Source: Soonwooa buanensis (lineage in GTDB: Bacteria; Bacteroidota; Bacteroidia; Flavobacteriales; Weeksellaceae). Taken from it: a stretch of DNA of 64,000 nt. The stretch spans positions 62,001-126,000 of the forward strand of contig NZ_FUYZ01000002.1 of assembly GCF_900167905.1 (NCBI RefSeq), given 5' to 3'. Position 1 is the stretch's first letter. Every line of letters begins with the position of its first letter. This document shows positions 4,852 to 10,120 of the stretch, piece after piece. The notes beneath the pieces were generated by a model, which saw only the letters and a list, made by a program, of their open reading frames with translations, made no database searches and was not told where the DNA came from. Both the position numbers and the translations under genes were made by a program.

Positions 4852-6408
4852 TTAGTTGGAATAAGACATCAATTCTTCTTTTTTGGAATTGACGAGCTTG
4901 AATTCTAAGTACTTGAATGAATCTCGTGGGATAATGGTTACCCATTTTTTGTATCTAAGGAACCATCTGTTCTGGATGCTCATAAGTCCTTTGGTAAGGT
5001 AAGCCTCTACAAATGGATGGACGTGAAGATACAATTTGCCCTTTTCCTTTTGGATAATGTTTCTGATAGATTCTTCCATGCGCTCTACAATAACGATTGG
5101 CGCAGCGATTTCTCCGTCTTTGTTCGGATTTTCTTCCTTGGTTTCAATATATTTTTCTGGACGTACCCTTTGTCTTGTCATTTGGATAAGTCCGAATTTG
5201 CTAGGTGGTAAAACTTTATGCTTAGCTTTATCACGTTTGAGCTCATCTCGGAAATGCTCATATAATTCTTTTCGATGTTCGGGATCTGTCATGTCGATAA
5301 AGTCAATGACGATGATACCTCCCATGTCTCGCAATCTTAATTGTCGGGCAATTTCTGTCGCTGCCATTTTGTTGACATTAAGCGCGTGTGCTTTGTTTGT
5401 AGTAGCTGACGAAATATTGTTACCAGAGTTAACGTCAACAACGTGGAGGGCTTCTGTATGTTCTATTACAAGATATGCACCTTTGGAGCTTGGGATATTA
5501 ACATTTTTCCCAAAGCTTTGTTTTAGTTGTTTTTCGACGTTGTAATACTCCAAAAGTGGAGTAGGCGAGTCGTAAAACTGAACAATATTTTTACTTTCTG
5601 GTGCGATAACTTCTAGATAATTTCTCATATCGCGAACCATACTTTCGTCATCACAAATAATGTTGACAAAGTCTTGATTGAAGTTATCTCTCAAGATAGA
5701 TGAGGCTTTGTCTTCCTCACTTAACATTTTGCTTGGTACTTTATTTTTTTGAATATTTTTGAAACAATCGTCCCATTTTTCGATAAGCTGATTCATATCG
5801 TTATGAAGTTCAGCAACCTTTTTACCTTCGGCAACGGTTCTTATAATAACACCGAAACCTTCTGGGCGAATACTTTCTATTAAAGTCCTAAGTCTTTCTT
5901 TTTCTCCTGGATCTTTTACTTTTTTTGAAATCGAAATTTTATTATCAAATGGTATCAAAACCAAAAAACGACCAGTCAACGATATTTGTGTAGAAATACG
6001 TGGTCCTTTTGTTGAGATTGGTTCTTTTGTTATTTGGATAAGAACAAGATCTCCAGCAGTGGCAACTTTGTCAATAGTGCCATTTTTGTCAATAACTTTT
6101 TGTACTGCAAAGTCTTTAAGTTTTGACGTGTTTTGTCTTTTTGCAATCGTGTCTTTCAAGAATTTTTGATAAGACAAAAATTGTGGTCCCAGGTCCTGAT
6201 AATGCAAAAATGCGTCTTTGCCGTATCCGATGTTGACAAAAGCTGCATTAAGGTTGGGCGCCAATTTTTTTATTTTTCCAAGGAATAAATCTCCAACGAC
6301 AAAGTCAGACTCTGACTCGATCTCGTGGAGCTCGAACAATCTACCGTCTTCTAACAGGGCAATCTGTGAAGAATCATTCTCATGCGAAATGATTAATTCT
6401 TTCTTCAT
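4852..6408 (-). CDS. rng: Ribonuclease G (Rne/Rng family)
   Basis: 518 residues, the RNase G size, without the long C-terminal scaffold of RNase E. The N-terminal region holds the interrupted S1 RNA-binding domain (about residues 35-130, 'VGDLFLGKIKKLAPNLNAAFVNIGYGKDAFLH'-type start, given here only in outline). The DNase I-like catalytic part carries the two acidic metal sites, 'HVVDVNSGNN' near 322 and 'IIVIDFIDM' near 368. The enzyme is a single-strand endoribonuclease, usually acting on rRNA precursors and mRNA in the cytoplasm. It lies downstream of the HU/30-residue gene pair but is separated from it by a terminator hairpin at 6499-6531, so it probably has its own promoter. Confidence 0.93.
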   Translation of the reverse strand: MKKELIISHENDSSQIALLEDGRLFELHEIESESDFVVGDLFLGKIKKLAPNLNAAFVNIGYGKDAFLHYQDLGPQFLSYQKFLKDTIAKRQNTSKLKDFAVQKVIDKNGTIDKVATAGDLVLIQITKEPISTKGPRISTQISLTGRFLVLIPFDNKISISKKVKDPGEKERLRTLIESIRPEGFGVIIRTVAEGKKVAELHNDMNQLIEKWDDCFKNIQKNKVPSKMLSEEDKASSILRDNFNQDFVNIICDDESMVRDMRNYLEVIAPESKNIVQFYDSPTPLLEYYNVEKQLKQSFGKNVNIPSSKGAYLVIEHTEALHVVDVNSGNNISSATTNKAHALNVNKMAATEIARQLRLRDMGGIIVIDFIDMTDPEHRKELYEHFRDELKRDKAKHKVLPPSKFGLIQMTRQRVRPEKYIETKEENPNKDGEIAAPIVIVERMEESIRNIIQKEKGKLYLHVHPFVEAYLTKGLMSIQNRWFLRYKKWVTIIPRDSFKYLEFKLVNSKKEELMSYSN

Positions 6409-6498
6409 AAATTTTGTTTTAATAATTGCCTTTTACGAAAGACATCAATAGTCAATTTTTTGCCAATATGGCGTTGTACTTGTGGTATGTAGAAAACA

Positions 6499-6531
6499 AA
6501 ATATAGTCGGCGAAAAACACCAACTATATTT
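6499..6531 (-). terminator. Terminator after the HU/small basic peptide unit
   Basis: On the minus strand AAATATAGTTGG pairs with CCGACTATATTT (one G-U pair, about 12 base pairs) and is followed by a UUUGUUUU-like tail. It lies 27 bases beyond the stop of the 30-residue gene and before rng. Confidence 0.7.
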
Positions 6532-6558
6532 ATATTTATATGACTGAGAGTCAGAATG

Positions 6559-6651
6559 TTATTTCTTCTTCTTGTGTCTGTTTTGTCTTCTTCTTTTCTT
6601 TCTTTTGTGGGTCGCAACCTTGTGTCTTTTTCTTTTCTTTCCGCTTGGCAT
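6559..6651 (-). CDS. 30-residue very basic peptide, probable ribosome-associated protein
   Basis: A short open frame from an ATG at 6649-6651 to TAA at 6559-6561. The protein begins MPSGKKRKRHKVATHK and ends RHKKKK; 18 of 30 residues are Lys or Arg, with three His, and no acidic residue. I recall near-identical peptides in many Bacteroidetes genomes, usually unannotated or called hypothetical. The composition is that of a small ribosomal or nucleic-acid-binding protein. It lies 37 bases downstream of the HU gene on the same strand and before a terminator, so the two are probably co-transcribed. Alternative explanations are a chance basic frame or an unrelated peptide, but the strong charge bias and conservation that I remember argue for a real gene. 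I cannot say which ribosomal family, if any, it belongs to. Confidence 0.72.
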   Translation of the reverse strand: MPSGKKRKRHKVATHKRKKRRRQNRHKKKK

Positions 6652-6688
6652 AATTTAGAAATTTTATTATAAGTTAATATTAAATTAA

Positions 6689-6982
6689 TTAGTTCTTTAC
6701 TGCAACTTTCGTTTTTACTTTCTCAACAAAAGTTTTTGATGGTTTGAAAGCCGGAATATTGTGTGCCGGAATTTCAATTGCAACATTTTTAGAAATGTTT
6801 CTTCCCGTTTTAGCCGCTCTAGTTTTAATAACGAATGATCCAAAACCTCTTAGATAAACATTGTCTCCATTATACATCGATGTTCTTATCTCTTGCATGA
6901 ATGCCTCGATAACCTTCTGAGTATCATTTTTTTCTACGCCTAATTTATTTGAGATGATGTTTACCAATTCTGCCTTTGTCAT
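6689..6982 (-). CDS. HU-family DNA-binding protein
   Basis: 97 residues with the complete HU/IHF fold: an N-terminal helical dimer region ('MTKAELVNIISNKLGVEKND...'), the 'LRGFGSFVIKTRAAKTGRN' strand region, and the DNA-intercalating arm with Pro in 'IEIPAHNIPAFKPSKTF'. The arm sequence NIPAF rather than RNPQT is typical of Bacteroidetes HU paralogues. It compacts and bends chromosomal DNA. A -7 box lies 29 bases upstream (7011-7018), back to back with the mutY region. Together with the 30-residue basic gene it forms a short transcription unit. Confidence 0.93.
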   Translation of the reverse strand: MTKAELVNIISNKLGVEKNDTQKVIEAFMQEIRTSMYNGDNVYLRGFGSFVIKTRAAKTGRNISKNVAIEIPAHNIPAFKPSKTFVEKVKTKVAVKN

Positions 6983-7010
6983 TTCCTTTTTTGTTTATAA
7001 TTTTGGTGTG

Positions 7011-7018
7011 CAAATATA
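7011..7018 (-). promoter_or_regulatory. -7 promoter box of the HU gene (TATATTTG)
   Basis: The minus strand reads TATATTTG, an exact TAnnTTTG match, 29 bases upstream of the HU start codon. Confidence 0.6.
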
Positions 7019-7028
7019 AAACATATTT

Positions 7029-8066
7029 TTGAAAACTTACAAACAAAAGACTGATTTTCTTTATATTGGCGTTAAGCTACTTAAATGGTATCAAACCCAT
7101 AAACGTGACCTTCCTTGGCGCAAAAGTATAAATCCTTATAATATTTGGATTAGCGAAGTCGTGTTACAACAGACGCAAGTCAAACAAGGTATGCAACATT
7201 ATCTCAATTTTGTAGAGCGTTTTCCTGATGTTGATACGCTTGCAAATGCTGATGAAGAGGAGGTTTTATTGTACTGGAAAGGGCTTGGTTATTATTCTCG
7301 AGCGCTCAATCTTCATAAAGCTGCAAAGCAATTGGTTACAGATTACAATTCAGAATTCCCTGAAACATACGCCGAATTATTAAAACTAAAAGGTGTTGGC
7401 AAATATACTGCTGCGGCAATTGCAAGTATTTCGTTTCATGAGAAGGTTGCGGCGGTTGATGGTAATTTTTATCGTGTCTTGTCGAGGTTGTTTGCAGATG
7501 ATTTTGATATTTCTAACTCTCGAGCTTTTCAATATTTCTCAGAGTTGACAGAATTAATTATGCCCGAAACAGATGCAGGTTGTTTTAACCAAGCGATGAT
7601 GGATCTGGGTTCGGAAGTTTGCAAACCTAAAAATCCACTTTGCTCGGATTGTCCTTTGCAAGATGATTGTCGAGCTTTTGCTATCGGAAAAATCAATCAA
7701 TTCCCTGTTAAACTTAAAAAAACTAAAGTTGAAAATTTAGCTTTAAGTTATCAATTCATTTATCATGATGACCAGTTTTTAGTTAAACAACGTGACACGT
7801 CAGATATTTGGAAAAAGTTATTCGAGTATCCAAAGAATTTAGATTTTAATGATATTGATTTTATTGAAGAACATGAGAAAGTTATTCAACATAAGTTGAC
7901 CCATCGCAATTTGGAAATTTCGATTTCAAAAATTTTAATACCAAATAAATGCGATTTTGATAAAATAAAAACTGAAAATGATTTTTTAAGCTTTAGCTTT
8001 ACTGAAGCCGAACAAAAGTCTTTTCCAAAACCTCTGCACGATTATTATATTAAATATTTTTCATAA
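7029..8066 (+). CDS. mutY: A/G-specific adenine DNA glycosylase MutY
   Basis: 345 residues. The helix-hairpin-helix glycosylase domain contains the catalytic Glu43 in 'ISEVVLQQTQV', the hairpin 'LKGVGKYTAAAIASI' and the Asp in 'AAVDGNFYRVLSRL'. The [4Fe-4S] loop is complete: Cys198, Cys205, Cys208 and Cys214 with spacing C-x6-C-x2-C-x5-C. The C-terminal third is a NUDIX-like domain that recognises 8-oxoguanine. The protein removes adenine mispaired with 8-oxoG. The only usual start giving a full N-terminus is TTG at 7029; no ATG lies before the conserved 'LLKWY'. That TTG overlaps a possible -7 box (7024-7031), so the true start is uncertain. Confidence 0.92.
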   Translation: MKTYKQKTDFLYIGVKLLKWYQTHKRDLPWRKSINPYNIWISEVVLQQTQVKQGMQHYLNFVERFPDVDTLANADEEEVLLYWKGLGYYSRALNLHKAAKQLVTDYNSEFPETYAELLKLKGVGKYTAAAIASISFHEKVAAVDGNFYRVLSRLFADDFDISNSRAFQYFSELTELIMPETDAGCFNQAMMDLGSEVCKPKNPLCSDCPLQDDCRAFAIGKINQFPVKLKKTKVENLALSYQFIYHDDQFLVKQRDTSDIWKKLFEYPKNLDFNDIDFIEEHEKVIQHKLTHRNLEISISKILIPNKCDFDKIKTENDFLSFSFTEAEQKSFPKPLHDYYIKYFS

Positions 8067-8302: not shown

Positions 8303-10120
8303 ATGAAGCGATTATTTTTTTATTTTAGTTTTATCTTTCCAATTTTTGGTTTTGCGCAAGAAGCTGTCATAGACACGGTTTATGTTGATCCGCAATTTCA
8401 AACTTCTCGAGTTTTTTCAAAAATTAAAGTCATAAAATCTGACGAAGTTCTCAGAAATGCCACTTCACTTTCAGATTTATTAAGTTTCCAAACGCCTATT
8501 TATATTAAAGAAAATGGTCGCGGAATGGTGTCTTCGCCTTCTTTTCGTGGGACAACAGCTCAGCAAACCGCTTTTGTCTGGAACGGAATTAACATTAATT
8601 CTCAGTTTTTAGGACAAGGCGATATCAATAATATTTCACTTTTGGGTTATGATAATATTTCTGTCAAATATGGTGGTGGAAGTGTTTTGTATGGCAGTGG
8701 CGCTATTGGTGGCTCTATTCACCTAAATAATTCGTTTGGATACAACAAGGGTTTCCAAGGACAATTGTTTTCGGAATATGCATCCTACGAAACGCTTAAT
8801 TCTTTGTTAAAATCTTCTTTTAGTAACGATAAATTCAGTTTTCAGTTTTCGCTTAGTCATAACCAAAGCAAAAACGATTATGAAGTTGAAAAGTATTACG
8901 TCAACCGAAATGGCGCATATGACAATACTGGCGTTAATTTAGGTTTTGCGTACAAAGCTGATGACAAAAACGAAATCTACTCGCAAAGTCAGATTTTTGA
9001 TGCTACACAAAATTACCCATTGTTGTCAGAATTTTCGACGCCAAGTAAGTATTTAAGTCGAACCTTTAGAAGTCTTGCAGGTTGGAATTTTAAAAATGAA
9101 AAGATTAAAAATGATTTTAAAATCGCTTATTTAACCGACGATTATCAATATTATTTAGATTCTAATATTCCGAATGCAAAAACTGGTGGAAGCATCAAAC
9201 AGTACTTGACGAAAAATGATTTTAAATATCAACTTAACGCATCATCTGAAATTAACTTTTTAGGTGAAATTGGGCAAGTTGAAGCCAAAGGTTTTAATAC
9301 TGGAATTAGCTCAATAAAGCGTGCGCAGGGTTCTGCTGGATTGTTATACCGGAATTTTTATTCTAAAAATTTTAGTTGGGAACTTGGTGCTAAAAAGGAA
9401 TATATCGAAAATGTAAAAAGCCCATTTTTGTTTTCTGCGGCAGGTAATTTCACGATTAATAATTTTTATAGTTTAAAATTGAGTGCCTCAAAGAATTTTC
9501 GCGCACCAACTTTTAACGATTTGTATTGGGAACCTGGCGGAAATAAAGATTTGAAACCAGAAAAATCTTATCAATTTGAGATTAGTCAAACTGTAAAATG
9601 GAAATTCTTGCAAGCAAGTCTATCACCTTATTATATGGATATCAAAGACATGATACGTTGGGTTCCTGGTGCGGGCGGGATATATCATGCGACTAATACC
9701 GCACATGTAAAATCTTATGGTGTGGAAGCGCAACTTGGCGCAGAGCAGAAGTTTGGAGATTTTGGCTATCGTGCGATGTTAGGATACGCTTACACCAATT
9801 CTGAAGACCAAGCATTGAAAAAACAGTTGGCTTTTGTTCCTTTTCATAAAGTGAATTTTGGCGCTGATTTTAGTTATAAAATTGTGACTTTACATCTGCA
9901 AACAATTTGGAATTCGAAGATATTTTCTGATACGCAATCAACTGATAAATTGGCGCTTGATCCTTTTTATGTCATTAATGTTGGTGCTGATGTCGATGTA
10001 ATAAAATCTTTAAAACTCGGTTTTAAAGTTAATAATCTGACATCGGAAGTCTATCGTACGGTTGTTGGTTATTATATGCCAAAACGCAATTATGCAATTA
10101 ACATGAATTTTAATTTCTAA
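8303..10120 (+). CDS. btuB: TonB-dependent cobalamin receptor, BtuB-like
   Basis: 605 residues. A signal peptide ends near 'FGFAQ' (residue 18), followed by a TonB-box-like segment 'DTVYVDP'. The plug domain spans about residues 30-145 ('LSDLLSFQTPIYIKENG', 'SPSFRGTTAQQTAFVWNG', 'VLYGSGAIGGSIHL'). The rest is a 22-strand type barrel with the final aromatic 'YAINMNFNF'. The size is that of BtuB rather than of the larger SusC proteins. The ATG at 8303 is preferred over a GTG at 8294. The riboswitch immediately upstream is the main reason to assign cobalamin as substrate. The next gene begins 11 bases after the stop and is a probable partner lipoprotein. Confidence 0.88.
   Translation: MKRLFFYFSFIFPIFGFAQEAVIDTVYVDPQFQTSRVFSKIKVIKSDEVLRNATSLSDLLSFQTPIYIKENGRGMVSSPSFRGTTAQQTAFVWNGININSQFLGQGDINNISLLGYDNISVKYGGGSVLYGSGAIGGSIHLNNSFGYNKGFQGQLFSEYASYETLNSLLKSSFSNDKFSFQFSLSHNQSKNDYEVEKYYVNRNGAYDNTGVNLGFAYKADDKNEIYSQSQIFDATQNYPLLSEFSTPSKYLSRTFRSLAGWNFKNEKIKNDFKIAYLTDDYQYYLDSNIPNAKTGGSIKQYLTKNDFKYQLNASSEINFLGEIGQVEAKGFNTGISSIKRAQGSAGLLYRNFYSKNFSWELGAKKEYIENVKSPFLFSAAGNFTINNFYSLKLSASKNFRAPTFNDLYWEPGGNKDLKPEKSYQFEISQTVKWKFLQASLSPYYMDIKDMIRWVPGAGGIYHATNTAHVKSYGVEAQLGAEQKFGDFGYRAMLGYAYTNSEDQALKKQLAFVPFHKVNFGADFSYKIVTLHLQTIWNSKIFSDTQSTDKLALDPFYVINVGADVDVIKSLKLGFKVNNLTSEVYRTVVGYYMPKRNYAINMNFNF

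Follow-up and report, generated by a model that had tools for sequence, protein, structure and literature searches.

Ribosomal protein bS22 is encoded downstream of HU in Soonwooa buanensis and has relatives in a few very large phages

Positions 6559-6651 on the minus strand of the window (the whole 64-kb stretch of DNA that was analysed) form an open reading frame with an ATG start and a TAA stop codon, which is identified below as the bS22 gene by its translation, PDB match, conservation and selection. It translates to the 30-residue peptide MPSGKKRKRHKVATHKRKKRRRQNRHKKKK, followed by the stop. The peptide contains 11 Lys and 7 Arg (18/30, 60%), 3 His and neither Asp nor Glu, in exact agreement with a preliminary description of this DNA. 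Upstream and in the same direction lies the gene for a 97-residue HU-family DNA-binding protein (6689-6982, minus strand), whose match to Pfam PF00216 (E 7.7e-28) backs the earlier placement of the frame 37 bases after an HU gene; the bS22 ATG is found 37 bases past the HU stop codon. The good terminator said to follow the frame was recovered as an intrinsic terminator-like hairpin of 14 pairs with a T-rich tail (6531-6499, minus strand), 27 bases after the bS22 stop. Two terminator-like sites were observed around bS22, compared with a mean of 0.3 in shuffled sequence; the second has 5 pairs and lies on the plus strand.

Beyond the terminator-like hairpin, downstream of bS22, is a gene for an Rne/Rng family ribonuclease (RNase E/G; 4852-6408, minus strand; NCBIfam TIGR00757, E 7.7e-113, above cut-off), and a divergent mutY gene, also above the NCBIfam cut-off, is located upstream of HU. 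A candidate promoter for HU and bS22 could be read from the sequence at 7043-7011 on the minus strand, where TTTG (7043-7040) is separated by a 21-base spacer from TATATTTG (7018-7011). This TTTG-N21-TATATTTG arrangement resembles TTTG / TAnnTTTG, the promoter consensus of Bacteroidota. A sigma-70 scan of the HU-bS22 region gave 2 promoter-like sites compared with 3.0 in shuffles and hence no excess, and an Rfam search of positions 6300-7200 returned no RNA family. The short gap, the common strand and a terminator-like hairpin placed after bS22 suggest that HU and bS22 are co-transcribed.

The identity of the peptide was established by searching PDB sequences at E ≤ 10, which returned three distinct sequences and no further chain. 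These were 7jil_5 (E 1.4e-10, 30/30 residues aligned and 28 identical), 9i5v_10, which is labelled as an AURKAIP1/COX24 domain-containing protein (E 1.1e-8), and 8fmw_V, the Borrelia bS22 (E 1.3e-6, residues 1-28 matched). A 22-row profile recovered the identical three chains with E-values of 4.6e-15 to 1.1e-11. 7JIL and 8FMW are the ribosomes of Flavobacterium johnsoniae and Borrelia, respectively. The peptide of 7jil_5 carries both of the names S22 and L38 across entries 7jil, 9oz9, 9ozn, 9ozz and 9p0e. Given that bS22 is a 30S protein and bL38 a distinct 50S protein of Flavobacterium (PMC10618245), the window gene is that of bS22. The source genome contains one match, and hence a single bS22 gene. 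Across 90 loci, bS22 was 29-35 residues long; a length of about 28-35 residues, ∼60% Lys/Arg and the absence of a long extension are expected of this type of protein, and all three hold for the window peptide.

The preliminary description had proposed a lineage-specific ribosomal or nucleoid peptide and a comparison with the proteins of the F. johnsoniae ribosome. That comparison yielded the end-to-end match to 7JIL chain 5, and the ribosomal part of the proposal stands, the peptide being identical at 28 of 30 positions to a chain modelled in that ribosome. By contrast, “lineage-specific” is too narrow because bS22 has also been described in Borrelia (PMC10618245) and actinobacteria (PMC10085706), and the nucleoid part draws on the HU neighbourhood and charge, which are considered below. 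Thus, the frame is a real gene for an already known ribosomal protein, and the gene itself is ordinary.

To describe its conservation, 395 genomes sampled evenly from the phylum of the window, Bacteroidota, were searched at E ≤ 0.01. A bS22 match was obtained in 376 of these, and in 358 of the 371 genomes with a completeness of 90% or more and a contamination of 5% or less, which bears out the similar peptides in other Bacteroidetes mentioned in the preliminary description. Each positive genome gave one match, except for two each in G209, G212 and G330. From among the genomes with a match, 90 homologues were picked at one locus per genome: the 30 best-scoring (that of the window and 29 of its family or order) and 60 from further genomes of 53 families, together representing 53 distinct peptides. 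One of the latter 60 (L068) also belongs to the order of the window, such that the order set comprises 31 loci. Within codons 2-29, residues P2, G4, K6, K11, H15, K16, R17, K18, K19, R25, H26 and K27 were invariant in 90/90 loci, and two of the 90 genes have a GTG start. At the DNA level, the window locus was compared with four named loci (L094, L101, L106 and L115), of which Epilithonimonas (L101) was the most similar at about 74%; similarity to two other loci (L011 and L002) was about 75% or less, and the organism is placed no more narrowly than as a relative of the Weeksellaceae. One contig with a Flavobacteriales-type bS22 of 93% identity is titled as a SAR202 cluster bacterium (L151, VFGW01000013.1) and is probably mis-binned.

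Synonymous and nonsynonymous changes, equal rates of which had been named earlier as grounds for rejecting the proposal, were compared in a Nei-Gojobori count of our own, without correction for multiple hits. The pN/pS ratio was 0.019 within the family (9 loci; pN < pS in 35/36 pairs), 0.064 across the order (31 loci; 460/465 pairs) and 0.136 over all 90 loci (4000/4005 pairs), where pS is saturated; single ratios are coarse, since each bS22 gene has only ∼16 synonymous sites. Differences at codon positions 1, 2 and 3 at the level of the order numbered 1194, 270 and 5523, respectively, in agreement with pN/pS. The bS22 gene is therefore under strong purifying selection.

Gene order was examined around the same 90 loci. 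The order HU-bS22-RNase E/G was present in 30/30 close loci, the window's own counted, with HU at most 200 bases upstream of bS22. Among the other 60 loci, which come from other families or genera, 39 have HU on the bS22 strand no more than 1.3 kb upstream, 13 have it within 200 bases, and in 11 RNase E/G follows bS22. The value of 39/60 is a lower bound, given that the flanks were unequal (1.5 kb or up to 3 kb) and that the only HU query was the window's own, applied at E ≤ 1e-5; in the remaining 21 loci, HU was undetected within 1.3 kb upstream, where a divergent HU could escape such a query. Several of the 22 loci that were laid out have an extra gene of ∼0.5 to 0.9 kb between HU and bS22, and that of L041 resembles TPR proteins, below all cut-offs. 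The link between HU and bS22 is old and apparently not obligatory, and within the order of the window it provides a simple handle for finding bS22.

These data bear directly on whether the peptide could instead be a nucleoid-associated or DNA-condensing partner of HU, an idea that its very basic composition and its position next to HU in all close loci and in most of the wider ones would favor. A peptide of that kind would be expected to show constant linkage to HU, which is not the pattern observed: the peptide core is unchanged in the 21 wider loci where HU was not detected, albeit with the caveat that a divergent HU may have been missed. Moreover, the invariant P2, G4, H15 and H26 are specific residues beyond charge, and a near-identical peptide is a modelled ribosome chain. 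A nucleoid function is accordingly regarded as very improbable. Still further from credibility is the notion that an A-rich spacer has produced the open frame by chance. Although A-rich, low-complexity DNA favors Lys codons, the bS22 frame is the sole ATG frame of 25-60 residues with at least 50% Lys plus Arg in the 64-kb window, and comparable frames were absent from 100 windows simulated with a first-order Markov model. Together with the conservation of the frame through the phylum and the excess of third-position differences, this amounts to a refutation.

The possibility that bS22 is bifunctional, combining a ribosomal role with antimicrobial or regulatory activity in the free state, gains something from the report that added Cutibacterium acnes bS22 inhibited three bacteria in disk assays and also cell-free translation (PMC10085706). 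Those assays concern the C. acnes peptide, effects on membranes or RNA may be expected of any free peptide so basic, and visual inspection of the 30 residues gave no sign of a secretion signal. We consider such a second function unlikely here. By comparison, we are nearly certain that the product of the gene is bS22, a structural component, 30 residues long, of the 30S subunit that would be made from an HU-bS22 transcript and would act as an RNA-pocket helix and a small inter-subunit bridge.

The site at which this protein would act is known from other ribosomes. The bS22 proteins of Borrelia, Flavobacterium and Mycobacterium occupy one common ribosomal pocket, which in Borrelia is formed by 16S h2, h27, h44 and h45; there, bS22 also contacts 23S H68 (PMC10618245). 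The Borrelia study detected every ribosomal protein except bS22 by tryptic mass spectrometry (PMC10618245). The C. acnes bS22 sits between h27, h44 and h45, touches 23S H67 and provides an extra inter-subunit bridge (PMC10085706). The contacts of Flavobacterium bS22 considered here are those given in these two papers; bS22 is unnamed in the F. johnsoniae bS21 paper (PMC9976891). As 28 of its 30 residues are identical to those of the Flavobacterium chain, the window protein is expected to bind in the same way, and the ribosome of this organism would be predicted to carry bS22 in the h2/h27/h44/h45 pocket. The basic peptide probably folds only once it is on the ribosome, where its helix would fill the 30S RNA pocket of h2, h27, h44 and h45 and neutralize phosphate. 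Through a contact with H68 of 23S rRNA, bS22 would link the two subunits as a small bridge and might thereby steady the decoding helix at its base. A stabilizing role of this type is also what the authors of PMC10618245 and PMC10085706 infer, as do we.

A first search left 19 of the 395 genomes without bS22: seven of seven in family f36, four of eight in genus g88, seven in family f18 (assemblies of 230-520 contigs) and one in family f29 (340 contigs). When these 19 were searched with a profile (E ≤ 10), two genomes returned matches. In G386, a 14-column partial match fell in a 22-residue open frame (E 6.0e-6) and a second match was weak (E 0.88), while G309 gave a single weak match (E 0.33). 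The genomes of family f36 (G147, G195, G199, G309, G328, G344 and G388) are GC-rich, their assemblies are 98-99% complete and a convincing bS22 is absent even by profile. It therefore appears that the whole of this sampled family (7/7) is without bS22 and that the protein is dispensable in some lineages. Within genus g88, bS22 was undetectable in G227, G274, G286 and G348 and present in G081, G151, G250 and G364; HU genes were observed in all four of the former and in the 3 other g88 genomes tested. In the GC-rich stretches from f36, acidic residues were equal to or slightly above basic residues, as far as can be judged with frame picking that is crude in such DNA. Halophily was considered as a cause of bS22 loss and found to be unsupported, members of g88 with and without bS22 being alike in composition. 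A family that appears to be without bS22 offers a natural test of bS22 function.

Relatives of bS22 in a few very large phages were unexpected. Two profile scans and a pattern scan of virus contigs revealed three uncultivated virus contigs with clear bS22 homologues, each on the plus strand. The first profile scan located one at L181:10001-10093 (IMGVR_UViG_3300027771_001853, 297,623 bases), the second one at L214:5564-5656 (IMGVR_UViG_3300031519_007017, 18,050 bases), and the third, at L220:3342-3434 (IMGVR_UViG_3300030202_003189, 231,285 bases), was found by the motif pattern. The L181 peptide, MSGAKKKKPSKISTHKRKKQSRKNRHKTKK, is 60% identical to the window protein, and the other two are 97 and 80% identical to it. 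In the three pairwise comparisons pN/pS was 0.06, 0.22 and 0.23, and the phage genes thus look to be under purifying selection. The pattern HKRKKxxRxxRHK gave five matches in virus contigs, namely these three loci and two doubtful ones, which were set aside before counting. Of the doubtful pair, L218 (positions 9557-9652, plus strand, IMGVR_UViG_3300013117_000201) is a basic, bS22-like frame of 31 residues that is ambiguous, with a TTG start and matches to a major tail protein nearby, and L219 is a frame without a start codon at a contig edge, probably a product of chance. Two further virus scans added no contig; one recovered just two of the three known contigs, indicating that the virus scans were not exhaustive, and the variant pattern used in the other misfits all three. 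A tblastn search of INPHARED phages with the window peptide gave no match and is accorded no weight, as the low-complexity filter probably masks the query.

The 298-kb contig (L181) encodes a terminase, a portal protein and a head maturation protease, and the 231-kb contig (L220) a terminase. Both carry bS21 above the Pfam cut-off; neither terminase nor bS21 was found on the 18-kb fragment (L214). Of the 23 larger frames of that fragment, six have counterparts in the examined pieces of L181 and L220; identity is 64 to 76% for five of these and 34% for the sixth. The 298-kb contig also carries genes for Hsp70, DNA ligase and a PPDK-type enzyme. One of its proteins contains CHU_C, a signal domain for type IX secretion (E 4.6e-13). 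This is indicative of a Bacteroidota host, and such a host is suggested for the bS22 phages. All three contigs are derived from metagenomes, and mis-assembly could explain one, although hardly all three.

Phage-encoded bS21 is known in Bacteroidota phages, and the curated genomes are said to be without other ribosomal protein genes (PMC9723584), which argues against a general pairing of bS21 with bS22, although a gene for 30 residues can readily escape notice. Viruses have been reported to encode fourteen ribosomal proteins (PMC6375957), and huge phages S1, S4, S21 and L7/L12 (PMC7162821). The main texts of these three papers and of a 2026 jumbo cyanophage paper do not mention bS22, and no report of a phage bS22 was found in the main texts of the open-licence papers searched. 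Bacteroidota ribosomes ignore Shine-Dalgarno sequences owing to a pocket that includes bS21 (PMC9976891). The phage genes are homologous to bS22 and co-occur with bS21 on the two long contigs. Here, we propose, at about even odds of being correct, that jumbo phages of Bacteroidota encode their own bS22 alongside their own bS21 and, during infection, insert both in place of the host proteins, at two sites of the 30S subunit, favoring phage mRNA. If true, this would be a case, open to experimental test, in which a virus replaces two proteins of one subunit. In summary, the bS22 protein was known already, and the aspects that merit attention are the bS22 copies in phages and the family that appears to lack the protein.

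The protein is nearly universal in the phylum, and at E ≤ 10 neither Pfam nor NCBIfam returned a family for the window peptide. Given that no model reports the gene, bS22 can be missed or left unnamed. Searches of both libraries with 22 relatives gave PF08213 (AURKAIP1/COX24_C) as a weak match in 8/22, with a best E-value of 0.063, plus one chance-level match and nothing else. None of 21 genomes had a PF08213 match above the cut-off and the source genome had no match to it at all, as compared with control matches in 3/14 genomes, 1 of them above the cut-off.

Compared with known systems, the window protein is closest to the F. johnsoniae bS22 (7JIL chain 5), from which it differs at two positions, with R21 and Q23 in place of A21 and A23. 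The Borrelia burgdorferi bS22 (8FMW chain V) belongs to another phylum and is matched over all but the end of the window peptide; it is 61% Lys/Arg, occupies an equivalent pocket (PMC10618245) and has a reported GUG start as opposed to the ATG of the window gene. The Mycobacterium and Cutibacterium proteins (5O61, 8CRX; AURKAIP1/COX24 domain) also occupy an equivalent pocket (PMC10085706, PMC10618245), but they were not found in the PDB at E ≤ 10 with either the Bacteroidota sequence or the profile, and a direct hhalign comparison of actinobacterial and Bacteroidota bS22 covered 22 columns at 27% identity, with a probability of 19% and a pairwise E-value of 0.0012. Mitochondrial mS38 and eukaryotic eL41 are analogues at the equivalent site (PMC10618245, PMC10085706); mS38 is longer than bS22, eL41 is shorter and unbent, and neither is matched by the Bacteroidota profile. 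It is the common pocket that connects Bacteroidota bS22 with actinobacterial bS22, mS38 and eL41; by sequence this link is weak, and the gene is therefore filed under bS22, apart from COX24_C. By contrast, the Bacteroidota and Borrelia peptides constitute one clear sequence family.
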